Source: Clostridiales bacterium (lineage in GTDB: Bacteria; Bacillota; Clostridia; Oscillospirales; Oscillospiraceae). Taken from it: 51,884 nucleotides of DNA. Of this stretch, positions 2,061 through 27,125 are shown in pieces. Location of the stretch: assembly GCA_022785125.1 (NCBI GenBank), contig JALFRA010000030.1, positions 1 to 51,884 on the forward strand. Reading direction: 5' to 3'. Both the position numbers and the translations under genes were made by a program. How positions within the stretch are numbered: position 1 is the first letter of the stretch; the number at the start of each line of letters is the position of its first letter. Under the pieces are notes generated by a model. That model was not told where the DNA came from, searched no databases, and saw only the letters and a list, made by a program, of their open reading frames with translations.

Positions 2061-2081
2061 CTCTGGACAATGTGTCTGGAA
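2061..2081. repeat. Dispersed 21-bp palindrome, copy 1 (degenerate)
   Basis: Left arm CTCTGGACA, centre ATG, right arm TGTCTGGAA. The right arm has diverged from TGTCCAGAA. It lies 12 bp past the stop of the small gene at 2093-2359 and just upstream of the recombinase promoter. Confidence 0.6.
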
Positions 2082-2092
2082 GTGGCGGATCG

Positions 2093-2359
2093 TTACAGCC
2101 CGCTTTTCTGCCGCAGGAAAAAGCCCGTCAGCAATTCCTGGAGAGAGGGGCCGTCCTCGGCAAATTCCAGCTTGATGGCCATATCGCCATAGCGGAAACA
2201 ATAGGGGTTTTTCAACTGTTCCAGCATACGAGCAGCTCGCTTTTCCAGCGGTAACGAATTATCAAAAACAAAACCGCTTGCGTCAACAAGCGTTTCCTTA
2301 TCCACCGCGTCAAGATTGACGCTCTGCATCTTTTCAATCACTTGTGCGTTTAGCTTCAC
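2093..2359 (-). CDS. Small conserved ICE protein, function unknown
   Basis: An 88-residue soluble protein without signal peptide or membrane segment. The first half is helical and charged, and the second half contains NPYCFRYGDMAIKLEF and a leucine-rich end. It resembles small uncharacterised proteins found beside recombinases in clostridial ICEs, possibly a DUF6870-type family, but I cannot confirm the family. The start has an AAAGGAGG-type site. Its place between the recombinase and another small protein might suit an excision or regulatory role, but that is only inference. Confidence 0.7.
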   Translation of the reverse strand: MKLNAQVIEKMQSVNLDAVDKETLVDASGFVFDNSLPLEKRAARMLEQLKNPYCFRYGDMAIKLEFAEDGPSLQELLTGFFLRQKSGL

Positions 2360-2451
2360 AGAAAACCTCCTTTGCAGTTATTCGCCAGTATTTCCGATGA
2401 TGAGCAGAAAGGGCCAGCACTGCAAAAGTGCTGGCCCTTGTTCGTCTGCAC

Positions 2452-2472
2452 CTCTGGACAAAGTGTCCAGAA
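2452..2472 (+). repeat. Dispersed 21-bp palindrome, copy 2 (AAG centre)
   Basis: CTCTGGACA, AAG, TGTCCAGAA. It ends one base beyond the stop codon of the gene at 2474-2674. A separate hairpin (GGGCCAGCAC / GTGCTGGCCC) lies at 2411-2438, about 13 bp away, and could act as a terminator. Confidence 0.9.
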
Positions 2473-2473
2473 C

Positions 2474-2674
2474 TTAATAGGGGCTGTTTTCGTAGTGCTG
2501 CTGGGCCTCTTCCAGCCCACGGATGTCAAAGACCTCGTAGAGCTCCGCCACCACACGCCGGATGTCATTGGGAGAAAAACCGCAGTTCTCCATCGCGTAA
2601 ATGACATAGCCACGGCAGGCGTTGTTGCTCCACGGCTGGGCCGGCATAGCGGCCAACATAGCATCGTATTCCAT
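2474..2674 (-). CDS. Small conserved ICE protein, 66 residues
   Basis: A short protein starting MEYDAMLAAMPAQPW and continuing ACRGYVIYAMENCGF. The start is chosen because AAGGAGG lies 8-9 bases before this ATG; a longer reading frame to 2773 lacks such a site. It has no signal or membrane segment. Similar small proteins occur near sigma-like factors in Tn1549-type elements, and their function is unknown. An inverted repeat with 11-bp arms (2708-2718 and 2760-2770) lies upstream, between this gene and the sigma-like gene. Confidence 0.65.
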   Translation of the reverse strand: MEYDAMLAAMPAQPWSNNACRGYVIYAMENCGFSPNDIRRVVAELYEVFDIRGLEEAQQHYENSPY

Positions 2675-2878
2675 CGGTATTTCCTCCTTGATAAGACTAA
2701 AAATGGAGGGAGCGCCGCGCTCATTTTCTTGCCCCGTCATAAGACAGCCATCCTCGGCGGCGGCGCTCCCCACACAAGGCGGGGCGGCGGCCTTTGGCCC
2801 CCGCGCCCACCCTGCGGAGAGGGGAAATTACTTCCTCTCATATACCACCAGAAAAAAAGGCGAAATGGAGCCCCTAAA

Positions 2879-3301
2879 TCAAAAATTTTCCCGCAAATAT
2901 TTTTTCATGTTTTCCTTTCCGCACTCCACAGAACGGCGGACAACACTTTTGTCCGTACCCTCCTCGCGGGCGATCTGGCGGTAGCTCTTGCCCTGGATCA
3001 AATGAGCGTCCACGCGGCGGCCCTGGATCTCCGGCAGGGAGTTAAGGGCGTTCCACAGCCGGAAGAACAGCTCCTTGCGATCCAGGAGCTCCTGGGGGCT
3101 GGGCTCGTGCAGGCAGGCGGAGTATTCGATCCCATCGTCACAATCAAGGGAATAGTACGCCTTATTGCAGCGCACCCGCTCGACATAGGCTGCCTCGGCC
3201 CGCTTGCTTGCCAGAAGCACCTCGGCCACTTCGTCGGAAACCTCCATATATTCATCCGTTACATACCAGGAATAAAAGTCTTTCAGATTGATGGTCGTCA
3301 T
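2879..3301 (-). CDS. Sigma-70-like factor (region 4 type) of the ICE
   Basis: A 140-residue protein. The C-terminal half (about 75-135) reads as a sigma region 4 helix-turn-helix, with LPEIQGRRVDAHLIQGKSY followed by RQIAREEGTDKSVVRRSVE. The N-terminal half is short and acidic, so a full region 2 is not evident. The start MTTINLKDF has GGAGG 9 bases upstream; a longer reading to 3346 is less likely. Such small factors are common in clostridial ICEs and probably regulate element genes. A palindrome copy and a possible promoter lie upstream. Confidence 0.8.
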   Translation of the reverse strand: MTTINLKDFYSWYVTDEYMEVSDEVAEVLLASKRAEAAYVERVRCNKAYYSLDCDDGIEYSACLHEPSPQELLDRKELFFRLWNALNSLPEIQGRRVDAHLIQGKSYRQIAREEGTDKSVVRRSVECGKENMKKYLRENF

Positions 3302-3392
3302 AATCGTTACCTCCATTTTGTTTTGTGGTTGGTTGGCCGGAAACAAAATGGAGGGCTGGCGGGGAGCGGCACCCTGGGGAGCCGCCCCGCAC

Positions 3393-3413
3393 TTCTGGAC
3401 AAAGTGTCCAGGG
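3393..3413 (+). repeat. Dispersed 21-bp palindrome, copy 3 (AAG centre)
   Basis: TTCTGGACA, AAG, TGTCCAGGG; the last two bases of the right arm are changed. It lies about 90 bp upstream of the sigma-like gene start and marks the last backbone repeat before the cargo block, where none is found until 9361. Confidence 0.85.
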
Positions 3414-3789
3414 AGAAAAACAAAATGCGCCTACGCGACACAAAGCCGCACAAGCGCACGAAATTATACATTCGTTATTGTGATACTTTATTTCATGTTC
3501 GTAGTCGGACTGTCCCGGAGGGGGAGCTACGCTTTTTTTTGCTGGTGCAAATCATGGGTACTGTGAAAAAAGGAAAAAATAGACACGGCGGCAATCCTCC
3601 TATATGCCGCCGTGGATTTACACGGTGTTAGGTCGTCGTTGGTTTAGGATAGACGAAAAGAAGCGGCGGCTCTGATTTCTCAAAACCGCCGCAGAAATGA
3701 AAAAGTCATTGAAACATGGAAAATCGCCCTGCCCCTGACAACGGTTTTTTTCTTTCCCCGTCAGGGGCAGGTTTGCACATTATAATCAG
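3414..3789. other. Intergenic region: possible promoter and three hairpins
   Basis: No gene is seen in this 376-bp stretch. A TATAAT on the minus strand at 3463-3468 could serve the sigma-like gene, although its -35 is weak. Three hairpins follow: arms at 3585-3593/3605-3613 with a downstream minus-strand T tract, arms at 3663-3669/3686-3692, and 12-bp arms at 3728-3739/3760-3771. They separate the backbone from the cargo ABC operon. Confidence 0.6.
3570..3613 (-). terminator. Intrinsic terminator after the ABC exporter operon
   Basis: The stem ACGGCGGCA / TGCCGCCGT (3605-3613 and 3585-3593) is followed on the minus strand by GTCTATTTTTTCC. It lies about 180 bp downstream of the last ABC gene. 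A second hairpin at 3728-3771, closer to the gene, has a long loop and no clear T tract. Confidence 0.65.
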
Positions 3790-4800
3790 TTAAATATGTT
3801 TCTTCTGTCGCTTAGATACAAACAGATAGAACAAGAACCAAAGAACACAATGGAGAGTGAGAATAACGATGTCCTTAATCGCTGTTGATGCAGTTCCATT
3901 TGCTAAATCCATAATGCCCTCAAAGGTGGCGCTGGACGGGATCAGGTAGCAAATGTAGGAAATGGCTTTGTTTTCTGCACCGACCAGATAATTCAAGATT
4001 GGAACCGCCATAAATACGATCATCACGATTTTAATATAGACCACACCCACCATCATGCCGTCGGAAAGTTTGCCCACAAATAGACCGATCAGAGCCGACA
4101 CAAATGCAGAAAGGACGATCAATGCCAGCATGACTGCTGCCCCTGTGAAAGAGAGCCGGAAGCAGATTGCCGCCGTAAGAACAGCGGACAGGCAGCCGAA
4201 CACAAAACCCACAAAGATTTTCTGCATCATGTACTGCCTGTGTGTCATGGGCAGTATTTCATTGATCAGCGCAACACCGTCCTCTTTTTCAGAAATAATG
4301 TTCATGGCATTAAAGGTACAGCCCATGAACATTGCCACGATCAGCGTGATGGCAATAAAGATATTCTGATAGCCTGCCATCATATCCGGGCGCTCCAATA
4401 CCTGCACATTGGCCTGTGCTGCCCATTCCCTCTGCTCATAAAGAGTCGGGAGGGTGTTGGCTGTCTGCTGGAACATATCCAGTTCATCGCCGGAAAGGAT
4501 TGTCTGGATGCTGCCGTTAGCCATTTCCACGCCGATCAGGTTTGTTGAAGGTTCGTTGATGGCCGCAATCAGTTCTTCCTGTGTGGGATAAACGGTAACA
4601 GTCCCATACCGTTCCAGCCATGTGTTGACTTCCGAAGTGGTGGTTTTTTCCGTTACTCCAAAATGAAATTCCCCCAACGAAGAAAGGTCAATGGAGCCGA
4701 CAAAATTCAATGCCACAGCGACCACAATAGGCAGGAGAAATGACATGATACAGAACTTGTCTTTTCGGACACTTTTCAGTTGATAGATCAGTCCTTTCAT
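3790..4800 (-). CDS. ABC-2 type exporter permease (second subunit)
   Basis: A 336-residue membrane protein with one N-terminal membrane segment, a soluble loop of about 110 residues and five segments in the second half, the usual ABC-2 permease layout. It begins MKGLIYQLKSVRKDKFCIM. It is 2 bp from the upstream permease gene, and both are co-transcribed with the ATPase. Related clostridial cargo exporters are often labelled as fluoroquinolone-type ABC permeases, but the substrate here cannot be read from sequence. A peptide antibiotic or bacteriocin is equally possible given the partner two-component system. Confidence 0.85.
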   Translation of the reverse strand: MKGLIYQLKSVRKDKFCIMSFLLPIVVAVALNFVGSIDLSSLGEFHFGVTEKTTTSEVNTWLERYGTVTVYPTQEELIAAINEPSTNLIGVEMANGSIQTILSGDELDMFQQTANTLPTLYEQREWAAQANVQVLERPDMMAGYQNIFIAITLIVAMFMGCTFNAMNIISEKEDGVALINEILPMTHRQYMMQKIFVGFVFGCLSAVLTAAICFRLSFTGAAVMLALIVLSAFVSALIGLFVGKLSDGMMVGVVYIKIVMIVFMAVPILNYLVGAENKAISYICYLIPSSATFEGIMDLANGTASTAIKDIVILTLHCVLWFLFYLFVSKRQKKHI

Positions 4801-4802
4801 TG

Positions 4803-5795
4803 TCAGCCCTCCTTTCCCATTTCCTTGCGGAACGCAGCTTCTACAAGGATAAAGAGTAAAATGATTGCACCTATCGCACCGACATAGTAGACCGGGCTTG
4901 TAGTCGGGACACCGAAAAAGGCGTTTTTCAGGCCCATATACACATGGTAAAACGGGTGATAATCAATCCACGCCATCTTGACAGAAGTATTCGCTGCCAG
5001 AAATACCGGCGTAGCCGCAAAGAGCGCAATTACCAGATACGCCAATGAAAATTGCTTAAAGTCCCGCAGGAGCATGGTACAGCCGAAGCCTGCCAGTGCC
5101 ATGATCAAGGAGAGGATAGCGGTCTGTACCAGCACCGCAGGCAAAATCGACATCCCGCCCAGCCCCACATTGAACAGAACCATCAAGGCCGTAAAAACCA
5201 GATCGGTAATCAGAAAGAGCATAATTTTAGAGCATACAAACAAGCTTTTATGCAGCGGCATAATGGCATGAACGCGGATCACTCCCATCTGCTTTTCCTT
5301 AAACAGAACCGAAGCAATCCCCAAAAATCCAACAGCTACAATCTCAATAAAGAGAAGTTCACAGGTGATCTCCCGGCGCTGCTTCATTTCAGGGCTGTTG
5401 CTGCCGACGATTTTAGCTGTATCATTTCCATCTGGGGAAAGCAGGGACAGCGCATAGTCTGCTCTGTGTCTGTCTGCTTTTTCGGTCGCCGCATAGAACA
5501 GGACATGAGGCGTCTTGCCGCTGGCGTCAATCCCGACACCGTTCGTATCACTGGCAAGGGCAGTATTCAGTTCTTCTAAAGAAGACACGGGCCGAACGAA
5601 GGAGGAAACCTCTGTCTGCGTCCCAGCCGGATCATACAGATACACATTGTAGAGCCGGGCGTCCATGAATTTCACATAGCCGAAATTGATGAACAGCGTG
5701 TATAAAACAAGGGAACCCAGCGCCACCAGAAAGAATTTTCCGGACATCATCATCCGGCAGTCTTTTTTGAACAGAGAACAAAGGCTTTTCCACAT
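4803..5795 (-). CDS. ABC-2 type exporter permease (first subunit)
   Basis: A 330-residue permease with an N-terminal membrane segment (about 22-40), an extracellular loop to about residue 145 and five or six C-terminal segments. The start codon overlaps the ATPase stop by one base and the next permease follows after 2 bp, so the three subunits are translationally coupled. The two permeases share the same layout but little sequence, so the working exporter is probably a heterodimer with two ATPase copies. Base composition is less GC-rich than the conjugation genes, in line with separately acquired cargo. Confidence 0.85.
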   Translation of the reverse strand: MWKSLCSLFKKDCRMMMSGKFFLVALGSLVLYTLFINFGYVKFMDARLYNVYLYDPAGTQTEVSSFVRPVSSLEELNTALASDTNGVGIDASGKTPHVLFYAATEKADRHRADYALSLLSPDGNDTAKIVGSNSPEMKQRREITCELLFIEIVAVGFLGIASVLFKEKQMGVIRVHAIMPLHKSLFVCSKIMLFLITDLVFTALMVLFNVGLGGMSILPAVLVQTAILSLIMALAGFGCTMLLRDFKQFSLAYLVIALFAATPVFLAANTSVKMAWIDYHPFYHVYMGLKNAFFGVPTTSPVYYVGAIGAIILLFILVEAAFRKEMGKEG

Positions 5796-6649
5796 TAAGA
5801 CAGCCCCCTTCCCGTGTACTGGATAAAGACATCCTCCAGTGTCGGCTCCTGTGAATGGATGCTGATGATTTCATCATACGCAAAAGGAATACCGGCTTTC
5901 AGTTCAGGCGCTTCTATGGTCTGCTTCTTTCGCTTGCCCTGATGAAGATAGGAAACCACAATGCGGTGATTGCTGTTTTTTTCTTTCAGATTTTGGGGTG
6001 TGTCCAGCGCAACGATATTTCCATTCGTGATAAACGCCACGCGGTCACAGAGCAGGTCAGCATCCAGCATATTGTGTGTTGTGAGAAATACCGTTGTGCC
6101 TTTTTGTCGTTCTTCCTCGATGATTTTCCGAAAAAGCACTGCACCGGCGGGATCGAGGCCGCTGGTGGGTTCGTCCAGAAATAAAAGCTTCGGATTGCTG
6201 ATCAAAGCTCTCGCCATACTCACACGCTGCCTCATCCCTTTGGAGTAGGAGGACACCGGCTTATTGAGAAAGTCTTTCTTGAATTCCAGTTCTTCCAGCA
6301 GCTCTTTTACATCCCGCAGTTGTTCTTTGGGATAAAAGGACGCAAAATAGTTCAGATTGTCCACTGCGCTTAAATTGGCGTACAGATATGGAAATTCAAA
6401 CAGGACGCCGATCTGCTGAAAAAACTCCTGTGTCTGTGCGGTTCTCAAATCCTTTCCAAATAGGGAAACCTCGCCGCCATGCCCTTTCAAGATGCCGGTC
6501 AGTATCTTTTGGGTGGTGGACTTCCCGGAGCCATTCGGCCCCAGGAATCCGAAAATCTCTCCATCTGCCACAGAGAAATTCAAGCCGTGTAACGCCTGCT
6601 TATCCTTTCTGTAGGAAAAGGTCAGGTTTTTAACCTCGATCATCTTCAT
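5795..6649 (-). CDS. ABC exporter ATP-binding subunit
   Basis: A 284-residue nucleotide-binding protein. Walker A is GPNGSGKST (about 38-46), the signature is SYSKGMRQR (about 133), and Walker B is LLFLDEPTSGLD (about 155), with the switch histidine in LTTHN. The C-terminal 70 residues carry the extension typical of drug and bacteriocin exporters. It would power the two downstream permeases. Its 5' end overlaps the small membrane protein gene by 20 bp. The tandem 11-bp repeats at 6852-6895 suggest that the neighbouring response regulator controls the operon. Confidence 0.93.
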   Translation of the reverse strand: MKMIEVKNLTFSYRKDKQALHGLNFSVADGEIFGFLGPNGSGKSTTQKILTGILKGHGGEVSLFGKDLRTAQTQEFFQQIGVLFEFPYLYANLSAVDNLNYFASFYPKEQLRDVKELLEELEFKKDFLNKPVSSYSKGMRQRVSMARALISNPKLLFLDEPTSGLDPAGAVLFRKIIEEERQKGTTVFLTTHNMLDADLLCDRVAFITNGNIVALDTPQNLKEKNSNHRIVVSYLHQGKRKKQTIEAPELKAGIPFAYDEIISIHSQEPTLEDVFIQYTGRGLS

Positions 6650-6791
6650 CCCCCCATTTTCCGGTCTGGTTCTTTTTCTTCTCCTGTTCCCGTTTGCTCC
6701 ACCATTTCATAAACTTTACCTTGAGCGGGATGCAGATTACCAGCGCCACAACAATCAAAAGCCACCAGTACCATTCCATACCTAAAAACAT
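6630..6791 (-). CDS. Small single-pass membrane protein, first gene of the exporter operon
   Basis: A 53-residue peptide with one membrane segment (YWWLLIVVALVICIPL) followed by a basic and then acidic tail. The start is the ATG with AGGAGG 8 bases upstream; an earlier in-frame start at 6821 lies upstream of that site. It overlaps the ATPase gene by 20 bp, so translation is coupled. Function is unknown. Its position suggests an accessory subunit or stabiliser of the exporter. Confidence 0.75.
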   Translation of the reverse strand: MFLGMEWYWWLLIVVALVICIPLKVKFMKWWSKREQEKKKNQTGKWGDEDDRG

Positions 6792-6851
6792 AATCGTTAC
6801 CTCCTTTGTCTGGAGGGTCATTCCCTCCTTGTGGGATAAAGGTACGAAAAT

Positions 6852-6895
6852 GCGTTGAAGTCGGTGTGAGGTCGCTGTGAAGTTGGTGTGAAATC
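6852..6895. promoter_or_regulatory. Four tandem 11-bp repeats, likely response-regulator operator
   Basis: Four units in direct tandem: GCGTTGAAGTC, GGTGTGAGGTC, GCTGTGAAGTT and GGTGTGAAATC. The period of 11 bp is typical of OmpR/PhoB-family dimers binding one face of the helix. The block lies about 60 bp before the exporter operon start, and a TTTATC -10-like box (6835-6840 on the minus strand) follows. The adjacent two-component system is the obvious candidate regulator. Confidence 0.75.
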
Positions 6896-6962
6896 TTCCC
6901 GGCAGAAGAAAAGGCCCTGATCTCCATTTGGAAACCAGAGCCTATGAGAGAATATGGACTTG

Positions 6963-8039
6963 TTATTTTACTATGGGGAGGGAAAAATAAAAGGTCACGC
7001 CTCCCGGCTGATTTTCTGCGCCATAGTGTAGGTGCTGCATGGACAAGACCTGTGCAACAATGGCAAGGCCCAGCCCGGAACCGCTGTATTTGGAATTTTT
7101 ATCACGATAGAATTTCGACCATATCTTTGACAGGCTTTCTTCCGGGATAGGCGGCCCCTGATTGAAGATAGAGAAGTCCAAAAAACCGTCTTTTTCAAGC
7201 AGGGAAAGTCTCAAAATCCCGCCCGGTCTGTTATTTCGTTTGGCATTGACAATCAGATTATTCAAGACCTGCTCCATCCGCCCTTTGTCCGTATTGACAT
7301 AGACAGGATGCTCCGGCAACTCGTATTCCAAAACAAAATCTGCGTCCGGGGTGTCGATCAACAGCCGCCCCGCCACTGTTTCCAAAAAGTCTACAAAGTC
7401 AAACCGCTCCAGGCGGAGCTGGGCAGCCCCATTTTCCAGCGCCGACAAATCAAGCAATGTAGTGATCAAGCGGCTCATGCGTTCTGTTTCTGTTATGATG
7501 ACCTCAGAATACTTTTGCCGCTTTGCTTCGTCTGTTTCGTCCTGTAATCCTTCGGCATAGGCCCGGATCACGCCCAGCGGAGTTTTCATTTCATGGGAGA
7601 GGCTGTCCACCAGCTCTTTACGCTCGGCAAGCAGCCTTTTTTTCTGCTCCACATCCTGCTCTAATCTCTGGTTGGCATCTTCCAAAGAAGAAAACGCTTG
7701 TTGCAGATTTTCAGCCATCGTGTTCAGGCTCTCCGCAAGTTCTCCAAATTCATCACGGCTTTTCACACGGCAGGGGTGGGAAAAATTAAGCTCTGCCATG
7801 TTCCGGGCAGCTTCATTCAGTTCCGAAACCGGCTTTGTGATAAAGCGGGCCATAAGCAGGTCAATGGCACAGATCAGCACCACCACAAAAGACAGCCAGA
7901 TGATAAAAGAAATATCTGTATTCACTGGCAGCTTGGTGGACAGTATATAAGAAACAATTAGGGCAACGCCAATCAGTTTGGAGGCCAGCAGGATCTTCTT
8001 TCGTATGGTAAAGATATTCATGCTTTCATTGATTTTCAT
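6963..8039 (-). CDS. Sensor histidine kinase
   Basis: A 358-residue membrane kinase. Two membrane segments (about 17-35 and 44-66) flank a very short external loop, so it probably senses within the membrane or through the exporter. HAMP follows, then HisKA with LSHEMKTPLG (phosphorylated histidine near residue 150) and HATPase with NLIVNAKRNN and GSGLGLAIV. Its start overlaps the response regulator stop by 4 bp. Intramembrane-sensing kinases of this size are often paired with ABC exporters for antimicrobial peptides, which fits the neighbours. Confidence 0.92.
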   Translation of the reverse strand: MKINESMNIFTIRKKILLASKLIGVALIVSYILSTKLPVNTDISFIIWLSFVVVLICAIDLLMARFITKPVSELNEAARNMAELNFSHPCRVKSRDEFGELAESLNTMAENLQQAFSSLEDANQRLEQDVEQKKRLLAERKELVDSLSHEMKTPLGVIRAYAEGLQDETDEAKRQKYSEVIITETERMSRLITTLLDLSALENGAAQLRLERFDFVDFLETVAGRLLIDTPDADFVLEYELPEHPVYVNTDKGRMEQVLNNLIVNAKRNNRPGGILRLSLLEKDGFLDFSIFNQGPPIPEESLSKIWSKFYRDKNSKYSGSGLGLAIVAQVLSMQHLHYGAENQPGGVTFYFSLPIVK

Positions 8040-8704
8040 ACGCTCACCTCGAATTTGTAGCCAGAACGGATCAGAGTAACAATATGCTTACCCTCATCAC
8101 CCAATTTCTGCCGCAGGGTTTTGATATGGGTATCTACTGTCCGTGTCGTTCCCTCAAAGTCGTAGCCCCAAATCCGATTCAGCAACTGCTCTCTGCTGAA
8201 TATCTGGCCGGGATTCCCCATGAAGAAATGCAGCAGTTCATATTCCTTGTGGGTCAAATTGATTTCCTGTCCGTCCACAAAGACCTTATGAGATGTGGGA
8301 ATGATCGTAATTTTTCCGGCGTTCACAGAATCGGCAGGCGTGATAGAGGAACGGCGCAGCAAAGCACCCACCTTTGCCAGCAACACTTTGGGACTGAATG
8401 GTTTGGTAATATAGTCATCGGCTCCCAGCTCATAGCCTTTCAGTTTATCTTCTTCCTCACTTTTCGCGGTCAGCATGATAATAGGGAGGTTGCTCATTTC
8501 CCTTGCCATCTTGCAGACGGAAAAACCGTCAAGGTGGGGCATCATCACATCCAGTATCATCAAGTCCATAGGATTGCTTTTCAAGATCATCAAAGCATCT
8601 ATGCCGTCGTCAGCCGTGAAGCAGGTGTGACCACCTCGCTGCATATACTCGGCAATAATATCCTGCATATTCTTTTCATCTTCAACAATTAGAATATTTG
8701 CCAT
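8036..8704 (-). CDS. OmpR-family response regulator
   Basis: A 222-residue regulator with a receiver domain (phosphorylated Asp52 in LMILDVMMPH, Lys in MLTAKSEEE) and a winged-helix DNA-binding domain in the C-terminal 95 residues (RTVDTHIKTLRQKLGD). It is the first gene of the two-component operon and is followed by its kinase. A strong promoter lies at 8745-8773. The likely target is the 11-bp repeat array before the exporter operon. Confidence 0.94.
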   Translation of the reverse strand: MANILIVEDEKNMQDIIAEYMQRGGHTCFTADDGIDALMILKSNPMDLMILDVMMPHLDGFSVCKMAREMSNLPIIMLTAKSEEEDKLKGYELGADDYITKPFSPKVLLAKVGALLRRSSITPADSVNAGKITIIPTSHKVFVDGQEINLTHKEYELLHFFMGNPGQIFSREQLLNRIWGYDFEGTTRTVDTHIKTLRQKLGDEGKHIVTLIRSGYKFEVSV

Positions 8705-8744
8705 AGAGGGGCCTCCTTTCTTTTAATCTCTTAACTATAAAACG

Positions 8745-8773
8745 ATTATAATACCAAACAGGACAAAAGACAA
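8745..8773 (-). promoter_or_regulatory. Promoter of the two-component operon
   Basis: The -35 TTGTCT (8768-8773), 17-base spacer and -10 TATAAT (8745-8750) on the minus strand lie about 40 bp before the response regulator ATG. The divergent XRE gene starts at 8858, so the two promoters share this 150-bp region. Confidence 0.7.
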
Positions 8774-8857
8774 TTTAGTGAAATAAAATACTACTTCACA
8801 TAAAATTTCATTACATTCTCATAATTCAACGCGAAATGTAGAATGATATAGGGTGAT

Positions 8858-9223
8858 ATGAGAATGAACCAGAATGAAAGAGGGTTTGACTTTCATGGCC
8901 TCGGGTTGGCGCTGAAAAAAGCCAGAGAGGAAAAGGGCTGGACACAAGCCTATGTTGCGGAATTAGTAGACCGTGACTCCCGCACCATTATGAATATTGA
9001 GAACAAAGGTCAGTATCCCAGCTTCGACCTTTTTGTTAAACTCATTACCATGTTTGACGTTTCAGTTGACCAGTTTATTCATGCGGACGGAGGAGCAAGG
9101 TCAAGTTCTTGCAGAAAGCACATTGATGTGCTTCTAAACTCCATGAATGAAAAAGAGCTTGTCGTGATAGAAGCCACAGCCGAGGGCATTAAGAAAGCCA
9201 GAGAAACGGAGGTTCCAGAATAA
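8858..9223 (+). CDS. XRE-family transcriptional regulator
   Basis: A 121-residue regulator with an N-terminal helix-turn-helix (about 15-70: LALKKAREEKGWTQAYVAEL, then RTIMNIENKGQYPSF) and a short C-terminal tail. It is divergent from the two-component system and is the only plus-strand gene of the ICE. The ATG half-site ATGAGAATG (8858-8866) is matched by CATTCTCAT at 8814-8822, which could be an operator for autoregulation. It may control the exporter cargo. Confidence 0.88.
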   Translation: MRMNQNERGFDFHGLGLALKKAREEKGWTQAYVAELVDRDSRTIMNIENKGQYPSFDLFVKLITMFDVSVDQFIHADGGARSSSCRKHIDVLLNSMNEKELVVIEATAEGIKKARETEVPE

Positions 9224-9276
9224 GGGCCTCTGTTTTTTTGCACTATTTTCGGGGCTTGCACGTTTTGGCAAGCAGG

Positions 9277-9327
9277 GCAGGTGTGCCCACACCTGCTATT
9301 TTTGCGTGGCCGGGGGCCCCGCAAAAA
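9277..9327. terminator. Two adjacent hairpins ending the XRE gene
   Basis: GCAGGTGTG / CACACCTGC (9277-9296) is followed by TATTTTTG on the plus strand. A second hairpin with arms TTTTTGCG and CGCAAAAA enclosing GGCC/GGCC (about 9299-9327) could work in both directions. They separate the XRE gene from the convergent relaxase gene. Confidence 0.65.
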
Positions 9328-9360
9328 TGCTTGTTGGGGAGCTCCCCAAACCCGCCGGAC

Positions 9361-9381
9361 TTCTGGACACTTTGTCCAGAA
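9361..9381 (-). repeat. Dispersed 21-bp palindrome, copy 4 (CTT centre)
   Basis: TTCTGGACA, CTT, TGTCCAGAA; a perfect copy. It lies 25 bp downstream of the relaxase stop codon and is the first copy after the repeat-free cargo block. Confidence 0.92.
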
Positions 9382-9406
9382 GTCCTTGTTGTCTGCGGCC
9401 CCGGCG

Positions 9407-10883: not shown

Positions 10884-10904
10884 TTCTGGACAAAGTGTCC
10901 AGAG
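10884..10904 (+). repeat. Dispersed 21-bp palindrome, copy 5 (AAG centre)
   Basis: TTCTGGACA, AAG, TGTCCAGAG. It lies 4 bp past the stop of the membrane protein gene at 10909-11199 and about 60 bp upstream of the relaxase start. Confidence 0.92.
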
Positions 10905-10908
10905 GTCA

Positions 10909-11199
10909 TCAGCTAAACATAAAATCCTGCAAGGCGTATTTCACCCCATACAGACGATCCAGCAGCCACTCTCCAATGGCCGGGAGCCCAAAGGGGGAAA
11001 CAAGGAACGCCAGCACCAGAGCAGCAATACAGCCCGTATGCAGCCCCGCGAAAAAGGCGCAGGCCGCCAGCAGGACAAATACCGTACACGCAAGGCCGCA
11101 GCACGCGCCCGCGATGCAGGCAAGGAACGAGAGCACCGCCACAATGAGCATCAGCGCCAGGACAAAGGGAGCCGCGATAATTTTTAAGATTGTCCGCAT
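10909..11199 (-). CDS. CD1845-family membrane protein
   Basis: A 96-residue hydrophobic protein with two or three membrane segments and the conserved C-terminal stretch VSPFGLPAIGEWLLDRLYG. This matches the CD1845 family seen beside relaxases in clostridial conjugative elements. The ATG has GGAGG 8 bases upstream. It heads the relaxase transcript, behind the promoter at 11245-11273. Its role is unknown; it could help place the relaxosome at the membrane. Confidence 0.85.
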   Translation of the reverse strand: MRTILKIIAAPFVLALMLIVAVLSFLACIAGACCGLACTVFVLLAACAFFAGLHTGCIAALVLAFLVSPFGLPAIGEWLLDRLYGVKYALQDFMFS

Positions 11200-11244: not shown

Positions 11245-11273
11245 ATTATAACTCCGTAGGAGAGGGACAACAA
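11245..11273 (-). promoter_or_regulatory. Promoter of the CD1845-relaxase operon
   Basis: Minus strand: -35 TTGTTG (11268-11273), 17-base spacer, -10 TATAAT (11245-11250). The stretch CGGAGTCATCCTTGTTG, including the -35, is identical to that of the recombinase promoter at 2020-2048, while the spacers differ. The long palindrome at 11282-11330 lies immediately upstream. Confidence 0.7.
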
Positions 11274-11281
11274 GGATGACT

Positions 11282-11330
11282 CCGGCTGCCCCGGCTTCTG
11301 GACAAAGTGTCCAGAAGCCGGGGCAGCCGG
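11282..11330. repeat. 49-bp perfect inverted repeat containing 21-bp palindrome copy 6
   Basis: Copy 6 (11296-11316: TTCTGGACA, AAG, TGTCCAGAA) is extended by 14 more paired bases on each side, giving 23-bp arms (11282-11304, 11308-11330) around AAG. It sits between MobC (stop 11356) and the CD1845-relaxase promoter. It could be a bidirectional terminator without T tract, a regulator site, or part of oriT. Confidence 0.9.
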
Positions 11331-12697: not shown

Positions 12698-12718
12698 CTC
12701 TGGACAAAGTGTCCAGAA
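12698..12718 (+). repeat. Dispersed 21-bp palindrome, copy 7 (AAG centre)
   Basis: CTCTGGACA, AAG, TGTCCAGAA, extended by imperfect GC-rich arms (GCCCGCC / GGCGGGGC). It lies between the gene at 11886-12668 and the cysteine-rich gene at 12833-13201. Confidence 0.92.
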
Positions 12719-14133: not shown

Positions 14134-14388
14134 TCAATTTTCCTCCTTTCCGCCGTCCTCGGACTTCTGGACACTTTGTCCAGAGGTGCCGCCGTCCCGG
14201 AGCCGCTGGAGCACCAGGGGCAGCTCCTCCAGGGACACGCTCATGCCCCGCACAATGTCCACGATCTCCGTGTTTTCGGCCTCCAGCTTGTTTTTCTCCA
14301 GCTCTTTCAGCCGGGCCTGCTGTTCGGCTATTTTGGCCTTGACCTTTTCAATCTCGGCCTGGATTTTCTGGCTTTTACTTGCCGCCAT
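14134..14388 (-). CDS. DUF4315-family small coiled-coil protein
   Basis: An 84-residue protein dominated by a coiled coil (IQAEIEKVKAKIAEQQARL and onward), as in DUF4315 proteins of ICEs. The ATG at 14388 has GGAGG six bases upstream; longer readings lack it. Palindrome copy 8 is translated near the C-terminus as TSGQSVQKSEDGG, apparently an insertion after the family domain. The gene lies between the NlpC/P60 and DUF4366 genes, with short spacings on both sides. Confidence 0.85.
   Translation of the reverse strand: MAASKSQKIQAEIEKVKAKIAEQQARLKELEKNKLEAENTEIVDIVRGMSVSLEELPLVLQRLRDGGTSGQSVQKSEDGGKEEN
14165..14185 (-). repeat. Dispersed 21-bp palindrome, copy 8 (CTT centre), inside DUF4315 gene
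   Basis: TTCTGGACA, CTT, TGTCCAGAG. It is read in frame near the 3' end of the gene as SGQSVQK. Confidence 0.92.
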
Positions 14389-18727: not shown

Positions 18728-19299
18728 TTCCTTTCCGGCCCGGCCACCTCTGGACACTTTGTCCAGAAGTCCGGCAGGGTACTTTCCACCTCATTTCCCC
18801 ACACATCCCAGCCGGGCGGCGTCTGCCTTGCGAACAGCTCCACCCTGGGCAGGTCGCCCATCAGGGCCACGATCTTATCACGGGCCTCGTCCGGCTTTTT
18901 GCTGTGGGCTTCAATGGGGGAAATGATAAACTGGTGGACATTGGCCGCCTGCCGTTTCAGGTGTCCCCGTGTTGCCAGCAGACACACCTCTGCGTTGCCC
19001 CGTGTCCAGAAGCCCAGGCCGTAAAACCAGCCGGGGGACTTGCGGTTTTGTTTGAGCCAGACGAAAGCAACGCTCTTGTAAGTGAAGCCCCACGCCTCAA
19101 TCAGCCGCAGGGCCTCCGGGAGCTGGGGAAAGGTGGCCCATAAAAAAAGCGCGCTGTCCGGGGCCGCAAGATCGGCCACAGGCAACGCGCAAAGCTCGTC
19201 GATCCCCATGGTGGGATAGTGATTTTCCGCCGCCCCCTGTACTTTCTTTGCGGAATACCGCCAGGGCGGATCGGCGTAAATGATAGAATACTTCTTGAT
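18724..19299 (-). CDS. MT-A70-type DNA adenine methylase, apparent ATC start
   Basis: A 191-residue protein. The N-terminus KKYSIIYADPPWRYS carries the catalytic DPPW motif of MT-A70 methylases, followed by an AdoMet fold (SALFLWATFPQLPEALRLI, WLKQNRKSPGWFYGLGFW). The only start that keeps DPPW is ATC at 19297-19299, seven bases after AAAGGAG; there is no ATG, GTG or TTG in frame nearby upstream. Palindrome copy 10 is translated at the C-terminus as FWTKCPEV. It follows the DPPY methylase with a 2-bp gap. Likely role: protecting ICE DNA from restriction. Confidence 0.85.
   Translation of the reverse strand: MKKYSIIYADPPWRYSAKKVQGAAENHYPTMGIDELCALPVADLAAPDSALFLWATFPQLPEALRLIEAWGFTYKSVAFVWLKQNRKSPGWFYGLGFWTRGNAEVCLLATRGHLKRQAANVHQFIISPIEAHSKKPDEARDKIVALMGDLPRVELFARQTPPGWDVWGNEVESTLPDFWTKCPEVAGPERK
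18748..18768 (-). repeat. Dispersed 21-bp palindrome, copy 10 (CTT centre), inside MT-A70 gene
   Basis: CTCTGGACA, CTT, TGTCCAGAA. It is translated in a third frame as FWTKCPE near the C-terminus of the methylase, about 20 bp upstream of the PrgI start. Confidence 0.92.
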
Positions 19300-19301
19300 G
19301 G

Positions 19302-20096
19302 TTACACTCCTTTCTCCCCGGCCTCCACCGCCGCCCGCGCCAGACGGACGCGCTCCGTGGCGGCGGCATAGTAGGCCGGGACGGTTTCAAAGCAAATAAA
19401 GCGGCGGCCTGTATTAAGGGCGGCAACCGCCGTTGTAGCAGAGCCCGCGCAGATGTCCGCCACCACCTCGCCGGGCCGGGTATAGGTCTTGATGAAATAC
19501 TCGCACAGTTCCACCGGCTTTTGCGTGGGGTGGACGGTGCGCTGGACAGCGGGAAAGGCCAGCACATTTCCGGGAAAGCGCAGGCCGTCCTCCGAGCCGC
19601 TGCCGGAACGGGTGAATTTCCCGTAATTGGTGCTGTTCCCACGGTTGCCTGCGATTTTCTTGTAGGGCTTGCCCTGTTCAAACTGCGGGTTGTATAGCGG
19701 AAGTTTCTGATAGAACACCAGAATATTCTCCGTCTTTTTCAGCGGGGCCCGCCTTGCGTTGAGAAAGCCTGTGCAGCGGCTTTTGTACCATACCCACTCA
19801 TAGCGGAGCATGGGCAGGTTGGAGGCCCCCAGCACCTTGTCATAGGGGCATTGGGCGAAAAACAGCACCGCGCCCTCCGGCTTGACGGCCCATTTCACCG
19901 CCTCCCACAGCTCCGGGAGCGGCAGGGGCACATCCCAAAAGTTCCGGGTGGTGCCATAGGGCGGATCGGTCAAGAGCATATCCACCGAATGACGAGGGAG
20001 AGAGCGCAGGCCCTCAATGCCGTCCATAAGGAACAGCCCCTCCGAAAGCTCCGGGGACTTCTGGACACTTTGTCCAGAGGTTGCCCTATCGGTCAT
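19302..20096 (-). CDS. DNA adenine/cytosine-N4 methyltransferase (DPPY type)
   Basis: A 264-residue methylase with the catalytic motif TDPPYGTTRN near residue 50 and the AdoMet-binding motif DICAGSATT near residue 210, an order typical of beta-class enzymes. The target sequence cannot be predicted. ATG at 20096 has GGAGG six bases upstream and overlaps the SpoVG-like gene by 11 bp. Palindrome copy 11 is translated at residues 7-13 as SGQSVQK, ahead of the catalytic domain. With the adjacent MT-A70 protein and ArdA it probably protects the ICE during establishment. Confidence 0.92.
   Translation of the reverse strand: MTDRATSGQSVQKSPELSEGLFLMDGIEGLRSLPRHSVDMLLTDPPYGTTRNFWDVPLPLPELWEAVKWAVKPEGAVLFFAQCPYDKVLGASNLPMLRYEWVWYKSRCTGFLNARRAPLKKTENILVFYQKLPLYNPQFEQGKPYKKIAGNRGNSTNYGKFTRSGSGSEDGLRFPGNVLAFPAVQRTVHPTQKPVELCEYFIKTYTRPGEVVADICAGSATTAVAALNTGRRFICFETVPAYYAAATERVRLARAAVEAGEKGV
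20059..20079 (-). repeat. Dispersed 21-bp palindrome, copy 11 (CTT centre), inside methyltransferase gene
   Basis: TTCTGGACA, CTT, TGTCCAGAG. Read in frame as SGQSVQK near the N-terminus, the same frame as copies 8 and 9. Confidence 0.92.
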
Positions 20097-20652: not shown

Positions 20653-20669
20653 AGACAAACTCCTTTCTT

Positions 20670-21536: not shown

Positions 21537-21547
21537 AGGCCCCTACC

Positions 21548-21760
21548 TTAGAACAGGCCGGACAGCAGAGGGATCAGGGTGGTGCCCAGCAGGATGATAC
21601 CACCGCCCGCCATAAGCTGTTTCATGCCTTGGCTTTTGGAGCCAGGGTTGTCGGAACCATAACCTTCCAGCAGGTTCACAACGCCCCACACGCCAAGGCC
21701 AGCGCCCAGGGCCACAACAAGGGTCTGCAACGTATCGACAGCAGAAGAAAAGAACTCCAT
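21548..21760 (-). CDS. Maff2-family small membrane protein
   Basis: A 70-residue protein with two membrane segments (LQTLVVALGAGLGVWGVVNL and GGGIILLGTTLIPLLSGLF) joined by a short polar loop, the Maff2 layout. The start MEFFSSAVDT has GGAGG four bases upstream; a longer reading would start beyond palindrome copy 12. The small size and two helices suggest a VirB2/pilin-like subunit, which is inference from the family and position. Confidence 0.85.
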   Translation of the reverse strand: MEFFSSAVDTLQTLVVALGAGLGVWGVVNLLEGYGSDNPGSKSQGMKQLMAGGGIILLGTTLIPLLSGLF

Positions 21761-21828
21761 AAATCCTCCATTTCTCCGGGGTTCCCCGGCTATGAAAAAA
21801 GCCGCCATTTCTGGCGGCAGGTCACAAC

Positions 21829-21849
21829 CTCTGGACACTTTGTCCAGAA
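21829..21849 (-). repeat. Dispersed 21-bp palindrome, copy 12 (CTT centre)
   Basis: CTCTGGACA, CTT, TGTCCAGAA. It lies 5 bp beyond the stop of the coupling-protein gene and about 70 bp before the Maff2-like start. Confidence 0.92.
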
Positions 21850-21854
21850 GCCCT

Positions 21855-24171: not shown

Positions 24172-24204
24172 GCGGATCACCCCCTTTCATACAAAAAGCG
24201 GCTC

Positions 24205-24225
24205 CTCTGGACAAAGTGTCCAGAA
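24205..24225 (+). repeat. Dispersed 21-bp palindrome, copy 13 (AAG centre)
   Basis: CTCTGGACA, AAG, TGTCCAGAA, extended by GCGGC / GCCGC. It is 6 bp beyond the ardA stop and just upstream of pcfB. Confidence 0.92.
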
Positions 24226-24231
24226 GTGCCG

Positions 24232-24936: not shown

Positions 24937-24937
24937 A

Positions 24938-25279
24938 TCAGCGCCGCCCCTGGCCCTTGACAGTCAGGATGCCCTCCAGGGTGGTGGCTGTAATCCCCAG
25001 CCGCTGGGCAACGGCGATGTCATTTTTTACCGCCTCGTTGACATAGTTCCCGCACACCACCAGCACACGGGAGCGCCGGAGCAGGTCGCGCCCCATGTCG
25101 ATGCCGTTCTTATGCTCCTCCGGCACCGCGTCATTGAGGAACAGCGGCAGGAAAAGCATGGGGCAGATAGGGGAATAGCCCGCGTCATAGACAATGCGGC
25201 AATATTTAGCCGCCTGTTCCGTAATCTCGCACTCGTCGCCGCGCCATGCGGCGGTCACATACGCAAGGGGTCGTTTCAT
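24938..25279 (-). CDS. Small nucleotide-fold protein (DUF4406-like)
   Basis: A 113-residue protein starting MKRPLAYVTAAWRGDE, with a Rossmann-like pattern (ICPMLFLPLFLNDAVPEEHK, GRDLLRRSRVLVVCGNYVNE) similar to DUF4406/DUF7768 proteins related to nucleoside 2-deoxyribosyltransferases. Whether it has enzymatic activity is unknown. The ATG has GGAGG eight bases upstream. It is followed at once by ardA, and its mRNA would begin beside the large structured region upstream. Confidence 0.8.
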   Translation of the reverse strand: MKRPLAYVTAAWRGDECEITEQAAKYCRIVYDAGYSPICPMLFLPLFLNDAVPEEHKNGIDMGRDLLRRSRVLVVCGNYVNEAVKNDIAVAQRLGITATTLEGILTVKGQGRR

Positions 25280-25329
25280 AGTCAAAACCTCCATTTCTTT
25301 CCTTATATATAGTAGATAGCGTCAACCCT

Positions 25330-25520
25330 ATCTCCCCGCCCTTTCCCATTCATGGGAAAGGGGGCGGCTCTGGAGGATATACCCCCGTCGCTTCGCCGGA
25401 AATAGCACAGCCGGGCCAGGCCGTCAAGGGCATGGCCGCCGCTATGCGGCGGTGCGCTGCACCCTTGACTGCCTGTACCCGGCTGTGCTGGAAGATACCC
25501 GGCGACGGGGGATATATCAC
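25330..25520. other. Highly structured intergenic region, possible ncRNA or replication/transfer origin
   Basis: No gene fits the roughly 300 bp between the DUF4406-like gene and parB. Two structures stand out. The first is a hairpin with arms CCGCCCTTTCCCA and TGGGAAAGGGGGCGG (about 25337-25367). The second is a nested cruciform: ATACCCCCGTCGC pairs with GCGACGGGGGATAT (about 25379/25502), GCACAGCCGGG with CCCGGCTGTGC, TCAAGGG with CCCTTGA, and GCCGCC with GGCGGT. The outer-to-inner pairing spans about 140 bases. Palindrome copy 14 follows at 25553. Confidence 0.7.
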
Positions 25521-25552
25521 CACAGAGCCCATCCCAAACGGGGAGCGTCTGC

Positions 25553-25573
25553 CTCTGGACAAAGTGTCCAGAA
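25553..25573 (+). repeat. Dispersed 21-bp palindrome, copy 14 (AAG centre)
   Basis: CTCTGGACA, AAG, TGTCCAGAA, 10 bp beyond the parB stop codon. Confidence 0.92.
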
Positions 25574-25583
25574 GCGGGGGCGG

Positions 25584-27125
25584 TTACTTGTCCAGTTCGT
25601 TCTTTTTCTCCGGCTTTGCCAGTTCGGGCGGCTGCTTTTCTTTCCACTCGTCCAGCAAGGCCAAAATCTGCGCTTTCATTTTGGCCGGTGTCACTTCCTT
25701 GCCAAAATATTTGTTGAGTTCATCGGTACTGATGATCACGTTATCAACCTCCCTTTTTTCCTCGCTTAAAATACCATCGATCACGTCACCATTGAGCAAG
25801 CCCTCCTGATCCAACTCCCGGAGCCGCTTTGCCTGCTTGACGGTGGGGGACGCCACCTCCCCGTCAATCGACACGGCAATGAGCCGCTGGTTTTCCGGCT
25901 TGATGTACGACAGCTCCACGGCGGGCATAAAGCCCATGCTTTTTGCGTCCACCTTTTCCAGAAGCTCCGGGACAAGATGGTTGAGCCGGACATAACGGAG
26001 CACCTTTTTATAGTTCATGTCATGCTCCTTGCCCACAATCTCCACCGAGAGCTTACCCAGGGCCTCCGCCTCTTTCTCGTTTTTGGGGCGGGCCCCCTGG
26101 CGCTTAATGGCCTCCAGTTCCAAATCCAGGAGCTTTGCAAGCTCGCTGGGGAGCGGTTCACCCCGCTGCTTGTTGCTGTTGCGCATTTCCCGGACAGCTT
26201 CCAGGTCGGTCATATTACGGATGATACAGGGCATTTCCTCCAGCCCGGCAAGTATGCCGCCAAACTGACGGCGATGGCCCGCGATGATCTCATAACCCTT
26301 GCCGTCCTTTTCCGGACGGACGGTGCCGGGTGTCATAATGCCGTGTTCCTTGATCGTCCCCACCAGATCATCCATTGCTTTATCGTGCGTTACCTTGAAT
26401 GGGTGCTCCCGGAACGTATGGAACGGGTGAAGCTCCGCCATTTTCAGATAGACGACTTTTCCCTCTTCCACCGGGCGGGGCGGGACTTCCGGAGTAGGCG
26501 GCAGCTTGATCTCCGGGGGCGGGGCCTCCGCCTCCTTGACAGGGGCGGTCTTGCCTTTTGGAGCTTTCACGCCGGGCCCAATCCCCCCGGAGCCCGTTTC
26601 CTTGTCCTTATCTTTTTTTCCACCTCTGGACACTTTGTCCAGAACGCTGGGGGCCGGGGACTTGTCAAGGGCCGCCTTGTCAGCCTTAGCTGGGCGGCCC
26701 TTGCGGGTGCCCGGCCCCTTTTCCGGCTTGTTGGGCTCCACCTTATCCTTTGCCTTTTTGGGACGGCCCCGGCGCTTTTGTGCGTTTTCCTCCTCCTTGA
26801 TTTCATCCAGTGATTTTTCCCAGGGTGGTTTTTCCTCGTTCCCGAACAAGTCACGGAACGCCTCATCCCTATGTTTGGGGGAGCCCTCCTCGACAGCCGG
26901 GGCCTCCGCCGTTGATACAGCCTCACGCGCCGCCGCCCGCCGCTGGGACATAAGCTCGTTGATCTTGTCAAAATCAACCACCACCTCGCCCGGAGCAGCC
27001 CTGGCCGGAGTATCCCTGTCTATACCGGCTTCGGCAGGCTCCAATGCTTTTTCCGGCGTGGCAGTTTCCGGGGCCTTTTCCACGGGGACATCATCCGGGC
27101 CTGTTTTCAGCTTGTCATCTGCCAT
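25584..27125 (-). CDS. parB: ParB-like DNA-binding protein
   Basis: A 513-residue protein. The first 215 residues are low-complexity, Lys/Pro-rich linker; a ParB/Srx-like domain follows (about 222-320, with HPFKVTHDKAMDDLVGTI, EIIAGHRRQFGGI and a RNSNKQRGEPLPSELA region), then a helix-turn-helix around VGKEHDMNYKKVLRYVRLN and a C-terminal helical end. ParB proteins bind palindromic parS sites and spread. No ParA gene accompanies it. Palindrome copy 15 is translated at about residues 160-166 as LDKVSRG. ATG has GGAGG seven bases upstream. Confidence 0.92.
   Translation of the reverse strand: MADDKLKTGPDDVPVEKAPETATPEKALEPAEAGIDRDTPARAAPGEVVVDFDKINELMSQRRAAAREAVSTAEAPAVEEGSPKHRDEAFRDLFGNEEKPPWEKSLDEIKEEENAQKRRGRPKKAKDKVEPNKPEKGPGTRKGRPAKADKAALDKSPAPSVLDKVSRGGKKDKDKETGSGGIGPGVKAPKGKTAPVKEAEAPPPEIKLPPTPEVPPRPVEEGKVVYLKMAELHPFHTFREHPFKVTHDKAMDDLVGTIKEHGIMTPGTVRPEKDGKGYEIIAGHRRQFGGILAGLEEMPCIIRNMTDLEAVREMRNSNKQRGEPLPSELAKLLDLELEAIKRQGARPKNEKEAEALGKLSVEIVGKEHDMNYKKVLRYVRLNHLVPELLEKVDAKSMGFMPAVELSYIKPENQRLIAVSIDGEVASPTVKQAKRLRELDQEGLLNGDVIDGILSEEKREVDNVIISTDELNKYFGKEVTPAKMKAQILALLDEWKEKQPPELAKPEKKNELDK
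26624..26644 (-). repeat. Dispersed 21-bp palindrome, copy 15 (CTT centre), inside parB
   Basis: CTCTGGACA, CTT, TGTCCAGAA; in frame in the linker region of ParB, read as LDKVSR. Confidence 0.92.

Follow-up and report, generated by a model that had tools for sequence, protein, structure and literature searches.

Why should a conjugative element carry some fifteen near-identical palindromes, nearly all of them placed where one gene ends or the next begins? The question is raised by an integrative and conjugative element (ICE) on contig JALFRA010000030.1 (assembly GCA_022785125.1) of a Clostridiales bacterium of the family Oscillospiraceae; the whole contig, 51,884 nucleotides read on the forward strand, is referred to here as the window. 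A first-pass annotation, made from the sequence alone, described the repeats as an ICE-specific family of 21-bp palindromes and offered several explanations, among them a site for ParB or another regulator, an RNA hairpin, and a small mobile repeat. The analysis presented here indicates that the palindromes are probably dispersed parS-like loading sites of the ICE's own orphan ParB, a clamp of the KorB/Noc kind. That this ParB reads the sites is very probable, judging by the way in which two of its residues change together with two bases of the palindrome.

The palindrome family in the window

A pattern scan of the window for TTCTGGACA-AAG/CTT-TGTCCAGAA returned 15 copies in the ICE at three or fewer mismatches, 14 of them with two or fewer, at exactly the coordinates first listed for them. 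Shuffled windows searched with TTCTGGACA-NNN-TGTCCAGAA gave a mean of 0.04 matches, and none of 100 shuffles reached 15. The central triplet is AAG in seven copies and CTT in seven, as had been reported, and ATG in the degenerate fifteenth copy at position 2061. The rest of the 2.97-Mb genome (43 contigs) holds just two further matches, both with three mismatches and both on contig 20, which bears out at the 21-bp level the absence of the family from the host chromosome. The term ICE-specific is apt relative to that chromosome and not in the sense of this ICE alone, the family being found throughout related ICEs with a lineage-specific sequence. Likewise, 21 bp describes the pattern that was scanned and not the full symmetry, as many copies are palindromic further out, to 29 bp at 9357-9385.

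The 15 sites span 24.6 kb. The largest gap between neighbouring sites, 3393-9361, contains a site-free cargo of ABC-transporter and two-component genes (3790-8704); when this gap is set aside the median spacing is 1.40 kb. Shorter and weaker matches are less informative. A 14-base core with up to two mismatches occurs at 62 places in the window's genome, against 10 for a reversed control pattern, and a similar excess is seen in genomes without a detected ICE-type ParB (46 vs 12 and 59 vs 14), so that weak core matches are regarded as a common background, the cause of which we take to be codon usage. Lone CTGGACA-AAG matches occur in genomes G246, G091, G095 and G259, where no ICE-type ParB was found. 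A pattern scan of viral contigs, in which every stretch but one among the matches listed held a single place, was not used. The idea that the palindromes are methylase sites was dropped, 21 bp being far above the 4-8 bp of such sites.

Palindromes across related ICEs

Relatives were gathered by a VirD4 search of genome contigs, of which the best 80 of 531 confirmed loci were used. ParB adjoins VirD4 in most of these 80 named loci, and in most of the 42 that were displayed from among them a palindrome of variable sequence directly follows the VirD4 stop codon. With the half-site numbered as T-T-C-p4-G-G-p7-C-A, type A sites, those of the window, have CTGGACA with an AAG centre; type B has GGGACA with AAG or AAT, type C GGGACA with AAA, type D CTGG(C/T)CA, type E CTGGACA with CCG, type F CGGGCCA and type G GTGGACA. 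Site sequence is mostly uniform within one ICE and differs by lineage (514 sites in 84 sources, among which one ICE is present twice as L172/L247, another is split into L244 and L245, and some contribute a single site). The majority bases 4 and 7 are G and A in 42 sources, T and A in 22, G and C in 15, and T and C in five.

The places at which the palindromes occur are far more constant. When a site was scored as lying within -60 to +140 of a stop codon, one was present after ParB in 68 of 71 loci, VirD4 in 66 of 69, ArdA in 60 of 67, and SpoVG and VirB4 in 33 of 35 each. Intermediate values were obtained for TrbL (24/39), MT-A70 (19/27) and the Cys-rich VLP gene (15/36), and sites were rare or absent after DUF3801 (0/70), Maff2 (0/41), PrgI (0/40), NlpC (0/33), CD1107 (0/33), DUF7768 (2/69) and N6_N4 (4/27). 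From these sequence comparisons the positions appear old and the letters changing: what persists in related ICEs, a check that the first-pass annotation had proposed, is a palindrome at the same gene junction, and the 21-mer itself varies by lineage. The median spacing is 1.38 kb over 270 gaps in ICE loci with at least six sites, and all 42 ParB-bearing loci of at least 18 kb have three or more model sites (median 8). L246 and L249 each have an equivalent of the weak site at 2061.

Among relatives without ParB the picture is different. The palindrome family was found in none of eight conjugative elements that have the same kind of VirD4 and no ParB in the fetched stretch by tblastn; these were hand-picked from 25 plasmid records listed out of 352 matching. 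Their model hits number 0, 0, 1, 0, 0, 2, 0 and 0, and the largest exact-arm family has one or two members. One of the eight, a Tn1549-type element on pMG2200, has a terminator-like GCGGC-TTTTTT stretch after VirD4 and no palindrome there. Of 400 genomes from the window's family, 35 have ICE-type ParBs (E-values up to 1e-65, a few being relatives of about 310 amino acids). Among 391 genomes sampled over the whole class, three have such a ParB, counting that of the window, and two new ParBs were thereby added.

Many near-identical copies, missing from the ParB-less relatives examined, would also be produced by a small palindromic repeat that spreads by itself and has no function for its host. 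This explanation is highly improbable and is disfavoured here because the copies keep the same junctions from lineage to lineage while their sequence changes, and changes in concert with ParB.

Covariation between ParB residues and half-site bases

The identity of the ParB C-terminal domain to that of the window drops stepwise in line with site type. The covariation set comprised 76 rows, of which 75 are informative, L177 being truncated at the residues in question. In a full scan of 298 ParB columns a single column separates the rows by base 4 and a single column separates them by base 7, in neither case with any exception. All 49 rows with G at base 4 have Arg at residue 359, and all 26 with T have Leu or Lys there; Val occupies residue 372 in all 18 rows with C or T at base 7, and Tyr or Gly in all 57 with A. 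Both residues are within the helix-turn-helix. In the window they are Leu359 (codon 26049-26051, minus strand) and Tyr372 (codon 26010-26012, minus strand), the latter opening the recognition helix in the structural model. Arginine-guanine is a usual protein-DNA contact, and Arg with G at base 4 fits it.

Five neighbouring proteins of the same ICEs do not show this pattern. Over 70-75 shared loci no usable column separates base 4 in VirD4 (0/609), DUF3801 (0/158), ArdA (0/212), DUF7768 (0/113) or Maff2 (0/54), and none separates base 7 in any of the five. A ParB tree from which residues 351-390 were excluded places three changes of base 4 on the same branches as three of residue 359, and three of base 7 on the same branches as three of residue 372; independent pairs are concordant (2/2 on well-supported branches). 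On a VirD4 tree the changes number six and six for base 4 and residue 359, and four and four for base 7 and residue 372, with 5/5 and 4/4 pairs concordant. Of the explanations first offered, it is the ParB site that this covariation strongly supports.

Later-fetched ICEs, intermediates and mosaics

ICEs fetched later, with less than 97% ParB identity to the discovery set, carry the predicted bases by majority in 16 of 16 cases (9/9 and 7/7 in two batches). The first batch contributed nine of 15 regions, with ParBs 85-96% identical to the nearest discovery row. Left out were L296, L308 and L309 (the same records as discovery loci) and L298 (an identical ParB), all of which agree, as well as L302 (99.7% identical ParB) and L310 (no site). 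The second batch contributed seven of 24 loci (L321, L324, L325, L327, L328, L329 and L332), including L321, whose site was missed by the scanner and recognised as a palindrome. Not counted were L320, L322, L323, L326, L330, L333-L337, L339 and L340 (at least 98.6% identity, all agreeing by majority), L331 and L338 (no site), the distant ParBs L342 and L343, and L341, which has a residue outside the code. In L331 and L338 parB has an internal stop, and no recognisable site is present in the roughly 3.8 kb fetched. Apparent near-copies remain among the 16 (L300/L303/L328 and L297/L307), and as all 16 have Arg359 they are a good test of base 7 and a weak one of base 4. A preliminary check on short held-out loci (8/8 in line) overlaps the discovery set and the first batch and is left uncounted.

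L341, whose ParB is 74% identical to a type F ParB, has Ala at 372 and A at base 7 in three of four half-sites, where type F has C or T, an additional natural switch. The site in the tail of parB exists in a half-converted form, TTCGGGACA-AAG-TGTCCAGAG, in 12 type-A rows representing nine distinct elements, and is fully converted in the window (26624-26644), L164 and L237. L187, which was scored by majority, is a mosaic: its D-type ParB is accompanied by two nearby D-type sites, and a B-type site follows a VirD4 that is 86% identical to the window's. Genome G237 encodes four ICE-type ParBs, each with its own type of site: A, B, GGGACA with mixed centres, and F.

Observations that weigh against ParB as the reader

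A number of observations count against the reading of the palindromes as ParB loading sites. The link between residues and bases was spotted by eye in the same data, ahead of the column scan, and on the ParB tree each base has switched independently only three times, with too few pairs for a sign test below 0.05. In VirB4, over smaller locus sets, 5 of 763 columns separate base 4 and 19 of 759 separate base 7. The other downstream proteins, scanned like VirB4 over 29-45 loci in which some site types are absent, have separating columns for base 4 and base 7 of 2/518 and 106/526 (NlpC), 8/146 and 23/137 (DarA_C), and 0/49 and 15/133 (SpoVG). On the smallest of these locus sets ParB itself gains separating columns, up to seven for base 4 and 55 for base 7, so that the column test excludes the downstream proteins less well. 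By a stricter exact-arm measure, 33 of the 42 longer ParB-bearing loci have a family of at least three and nine have only one or two. Most sites are found at gene ends and not at promoters. The excluded near-copy L302 has one agreeing and one discordant (GGGCCA) site. In L250 (genome G232, contig 271) there are three type-A sites, and the only close ICE-type ParB found in G232 is B-type; L250 may be a mosaic, or else a mobilizable element relying on the ParB of another ICE. The L250 sites adjoin a MobA-type relaxase gene and a sigma-like gene, next to another type IV secretion system. Finally, the geometry differs from that of ParB and Noc, in which residue 173, the counterpart of residue 372, sets another and apparently non-equivalent base; the ICE ParB may therefore dock differently.

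These figures also bear on whether some other DNA-binding protein of the ICE, such as the XRE, sigma-like or SpoVG-like protein or the response regulator, reads the sites, with ParB a fellow traveller. The sigma-like, XRE, relaxase and recombinase genes lie beyond most of the fetched flanks and hence outside the covariation scan, and SpoVG does have its separating columns for base 7, over 36 loci in which C or T comes almost solely from one lineage. SpoVG has none for base 4, however, and the ParB residues that separate the bases, out of 298 columns, fall precisely in the helix-turn-helix and switch convergently with the sites. Another reader is accordingly judged very unlikely.

The ICE ParB protein

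The proposed reader is encoded by parB (25584-27125, minus strand), a gene for a protein of 513 amino acids with a low-complexity N-terminal tail, a ParB_N domain at residues 235-312 (PF02195, E 5.6e-15; TIGR00180, 62.7 bits against a cut-off of 58.45) and a helix-turn-helix at about residues 350-383. An AlphaFold2 model of residues 216-513 (pLDDT, the per-residue confidence, 83.8; pTM, the predicted TM-score, 0.71) was matched by Foldseek to ParB, Noc and KorB structures (6sdk, 5e-11; 7ol9, 2e-10; 8qa9, 3e-8), with query TM-scores of just 0.30-0.41 over the two-domain chain. The tail is rich in Pro, Ala and Lys by inspection. Motifs of the form [KR]GRP, which we take to be AT-hook-like, are present in the N-terminal part of 64 of 74 aligned rows.

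At the position of the GERRxR-type phosphate-binding motif, the ICE ParBs have G-H-R-R, invariant in 33 aligned rows, with His in place of Glu. KorB has Ala at that position and retains CTP (cytidine triphosphate) hydrolysis, according to the excerpted text of PMC11790492. Residue 372 aligns by eye with R173 of Caulobacter crescentus ParB and with the residue 173 that distinguishes parS from the Noc-binding site (NBS). According to the excerpted text of PMC7383237, R173 makes contact with parS and belongs to a group of four residues that determine ParB/Noc specificity.

Placement of the individual sites

The copies accompany a conjugation module, whose relatives carry CD1115/CD1110/CD1107-type annotation. 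It includes genes for a serine recombinase, relaxase, MobC, DarA_C, Cys-rich VLP, CD1107, NlpC/P60, VirB4 and PrgI, and further for MT-A70 and N6_N4 methylases, a SpoVG-like protein, TrbL, Maff2, VirD4, DUF3801, ArdA, DUF7768 and ParB. An IS200-like transposase gene (Y1_Tnp) is located at 27340-27678, at the parB end of the element. The first description of the sites as lying at or near gene ends and starts holds for 14 of the 15; the exception is the copy at 26624, which lies within the parB reading frame, among the codons of the N-terminal tail.

Several palindromes overlap the first or last codons of genes. Two coincide with gene ends: 14165-14185 with the final codons of a short reading frame that is DUF4315-like by its position (a label taken from an annotated relative), and 18748-18768, upstream of PrgI, with those of the MT-A70 gene. 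The site at 15958-15978, 27 bp past the VirB4 stop codon, takes in the first codons of the NlpC/P60 gene, and that at 20059-20079, 6 bp past the stop codon of the SpoVG-like gene, the first codons of the N6_N4 methylase gene. Others follow stop codons closely: 2452-2472 by 1 bp (an open reading frame ending at 2474), 10884-10904 by 4 bp (the reading frame 10909-11199), 21829-21849 by 5 bp (VirD4, ahead of a terminator-like hairpin at 21818-21801), 24205-24225 by 6 bp (ArdA), 25553-25573 by 10 bp (parB) and 9361-9381, the centre of the 29-bp palindrome, by 25 bp (relaxase). The site at 12698-12718 lies between the Cys-rich VLP and DarA_C genes, and that at 3393-3413, with two mismatches, upstream of the sigma-like gene (2879-3346).

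The remaining two sites adjoin promoter-like sequence. The degenerate copy, CTCTGGACA-ATG-TGTCTGGAA (2061-2081), is 2 bp from a GGAGTCATCC-TTGTTG...TATAAT stretch upstream of the serine recombinase gene, and the copy after MobC (11296-11316) is 12 bp from a second one. At both places, 2042-2058 and 11267-11283 (-), an identical GGAGTCATCCTTGTTGT stretch is followed 17 bp on by TATAAT and adjoins a palindrome; a consensus promoter scan did not list the TTGTTG-17-TATAAT stretch. These two are possibly co-regulated ICE promoters, one for the recombinase and one for the gene set before the relaxase.

The closeness of the sites to stop codons, with median offsets of 3-7 bp after ParB, ArdA, VirD4 and SpoVG, recalls RNA hairpins that process, protect or terminate the transfer mRNAs. 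On the coding strand U.G outnumbers C.A by 47 to 13 in types A, E and G (17 loci), which have T at base 4 and A at base 7, and the coding-strand centre is AAG 87 times against 35 for CTT in related loci, with homologous sites counted repeatedly; sites wholly indifferent to orientation would not show the latter bias. Over all loci, however, mismatched arm pairs on the coding strand are G.U in 214 cases and A.C in 228, and because A.C is as frequent as G.U the hairpin explanation is disfavoured. The window's own centres are evenly divided, an ordinary terminator-like hairpin already follows VirD4 both in the window and in the palindrome-free Tn1549-type element, and the covariation with ParB residues would not be accounted for. 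A role of this kind in mRNA is quite improbable and is not needed to explain the sites.

Absence of ParA and origin of the array

No ParA was found in the fetched DNA of 80 of 81 ICE sources, most of these loci being partial and the window's not. In L179 (6355-6570), from a Faecalibacterium genome, a 72-amino-acid ParA remnant, 60% identical, stands directly upstream of the ICE parB. The distant ParB relatives, mostly of about 310 amino acids and 33-46% identical, have an adjacent ParA in 19 of 24 loci (by Pfam for three), and in 15 of 25 loci parB itself contains a long perfect palindrome. The window's own genome also encodes a ParB of this shorter type, with a single palindrome copy. An insertion makes the alignment at residue 359 unsafe in these proteins, so only residue 372 was used. 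Their half-sites vary with it: all six with Arg, among them a pair of near-identical ParBs, have CC at bases 6-7, and in L273 Tyr accompanies GA, exactly as in the window. In L273, L272, L292 and other loci of this type the palindrome falls in the part of parB that encodes the beginning of the helix-turn-helix or the residues immediately ahead of it, which means that the same bases encode the site and part of the ParB that may read it.

The simplest history would be that a one-site ParABS operon lost its ParA while its sites multiplied along the transfer module. The main rival to a regulatory role accepts the same reader: the sites would form a distributed centromere through which the excised, replicating ICE is kept or segregated by way of the host's ParA or SMC, or the ParB coat would serve as a shield. 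In favour of this rival are the ParA genes and in-parB palindromes of the distant relatives, and the remnant in L179. Some fifteen dispersed sites would nevertheless be unusual for a centromere, those in the window follow the transfer genes and bypass the cargo, and ParA is missing from the fetched DNA of nearly all the ICE sources. With the partner that ParB relatives keep having been lost, the system is probably no longer one of ordinary ParABS partition, and a centromere is considered unlikely, though much less so than the hairpin or the mobile repeat.

Proposed mechanism and meaning

The comparisons lend good support to recognition of T-T-C-p4-G-G-p7-C-A half-sites by the ParB helix-turn-helix, where p4 depends on residue 359 (G for Arg, T for Leu or Lys) and p7 on residue 372 (C or T for Val, A for Tyr or Gly). 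The window's ParB would then prefer TTCTGGACA-AAG-TGTCCAGAA over TTTGGGACA-AAG-TGTCCCGAA and TTCGGGCCA-type duplexes. Like KorB and Noc, it would bind nucleotide, load as a clamp at each site and slide or spread over the roughly 1.4 kb to the next, and its lysine-rich tail with [KR]GRP motifs may give extra non-specific contacts with DNA. The transfer module would in this way be coated and its transcription kept low, or tuned, until transfer. In view of the structure matches, the KorB-like spacing and the two sites near promoter-like stretches, we favour an array of dispersed clamp-loading sites through which the transfer genes are regulated. That the main role of clamp loading is to regulate or silence these genes is plausible by analogy and is put forward tentatively.

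Since site sequences differ between ICE families, co-resident ICEs could each be read by their own ParB. More speculatively, the ParA-less ParB may form an element-wide coat or silencer, with about one site per 1.4 kb, whose code of two residues and two bases has diversified repeatedly, so that co-resident ICEs, of which genome G237 has four types, ignore each other's sites, an incompatibility-like form of self-recognition. Equally conjectural, as part of this idea, is that the dispersed sites have been rewritten at least three times in step with ParB and that half-converted intermediates survive. If the interpretation is right, a role can be assigned to an unexplained ICE gene, parB, and the sites provide a marker for finding and typing ParB-bearing elements. 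The ICEs would also represent a natural replicated experiment in which a DNA-binding protein and some 15 targets shift specificity jointly and intermediate forms are still to be seen. It also becomes a testable question how regulation is kept separate among conjugative elements that share a cell.

Comparison with known systems

No description of the ICE palindromes was found in the open-access literature, among the matches listed; subscription papers were mostly outside the scope of this search. Several known systems share part of the arrangement. With ParABS and parS the ICE has in common a ParB_N domain, a helix-turn-helix and palindromic sites, but it has no ParA, its palindrome is another one, and its sites number about 15 over 25 kb instead of a few clustered near the origin or parAB. 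Noc of Bacillus is related to ParB, has dispersed sites and works independently of ParA, and is among the Foldseek matches of the ICE ParB (7ol9, 7nfu), whose residue 372 aligns by eye with the Noc specificity residue 173. The NBS are located on the host chromosome, however, and the ICE sites have a different sequence. The stoperators of phage L5 are likewise many short sites in small intergenic gaps; they are asymmetric and oriented with transcription, whereas the ICE sites are palindromic.

Among ICEs themselves, BisD of Pseudomonas ICEs is a ParB-like CTP clamp that regulates gene expression (PMC12704722, as excerpted). The element is unrelated to the present one, and dispersed family-wide sites are not mentioned for BisD in the excerpted text of that paper. 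KorB of plasmid RK2 is a ParB-fold protein of a conjugative element with several dispersed operators (O_B). Among the Foldseek matches with E below 4e-7, the top query-normalised TM-score (0.41) belongs to the KorB-KorA complex 8qa9. KorB has a peptide that interacts with IncC, a ParA, and the window's ICE is without ParA; the operator sequences differ, and the ICE sites are mostly at gene ends and not upstream of promoters. As described in the excerpted text of PMC11790492, the source also for the IncC contact, KorB silences promoters by sliding over distances of up to 1.5 kb from its distal operators, a range of the same order as the median spacing of 1.38 kb between the ICE sites.

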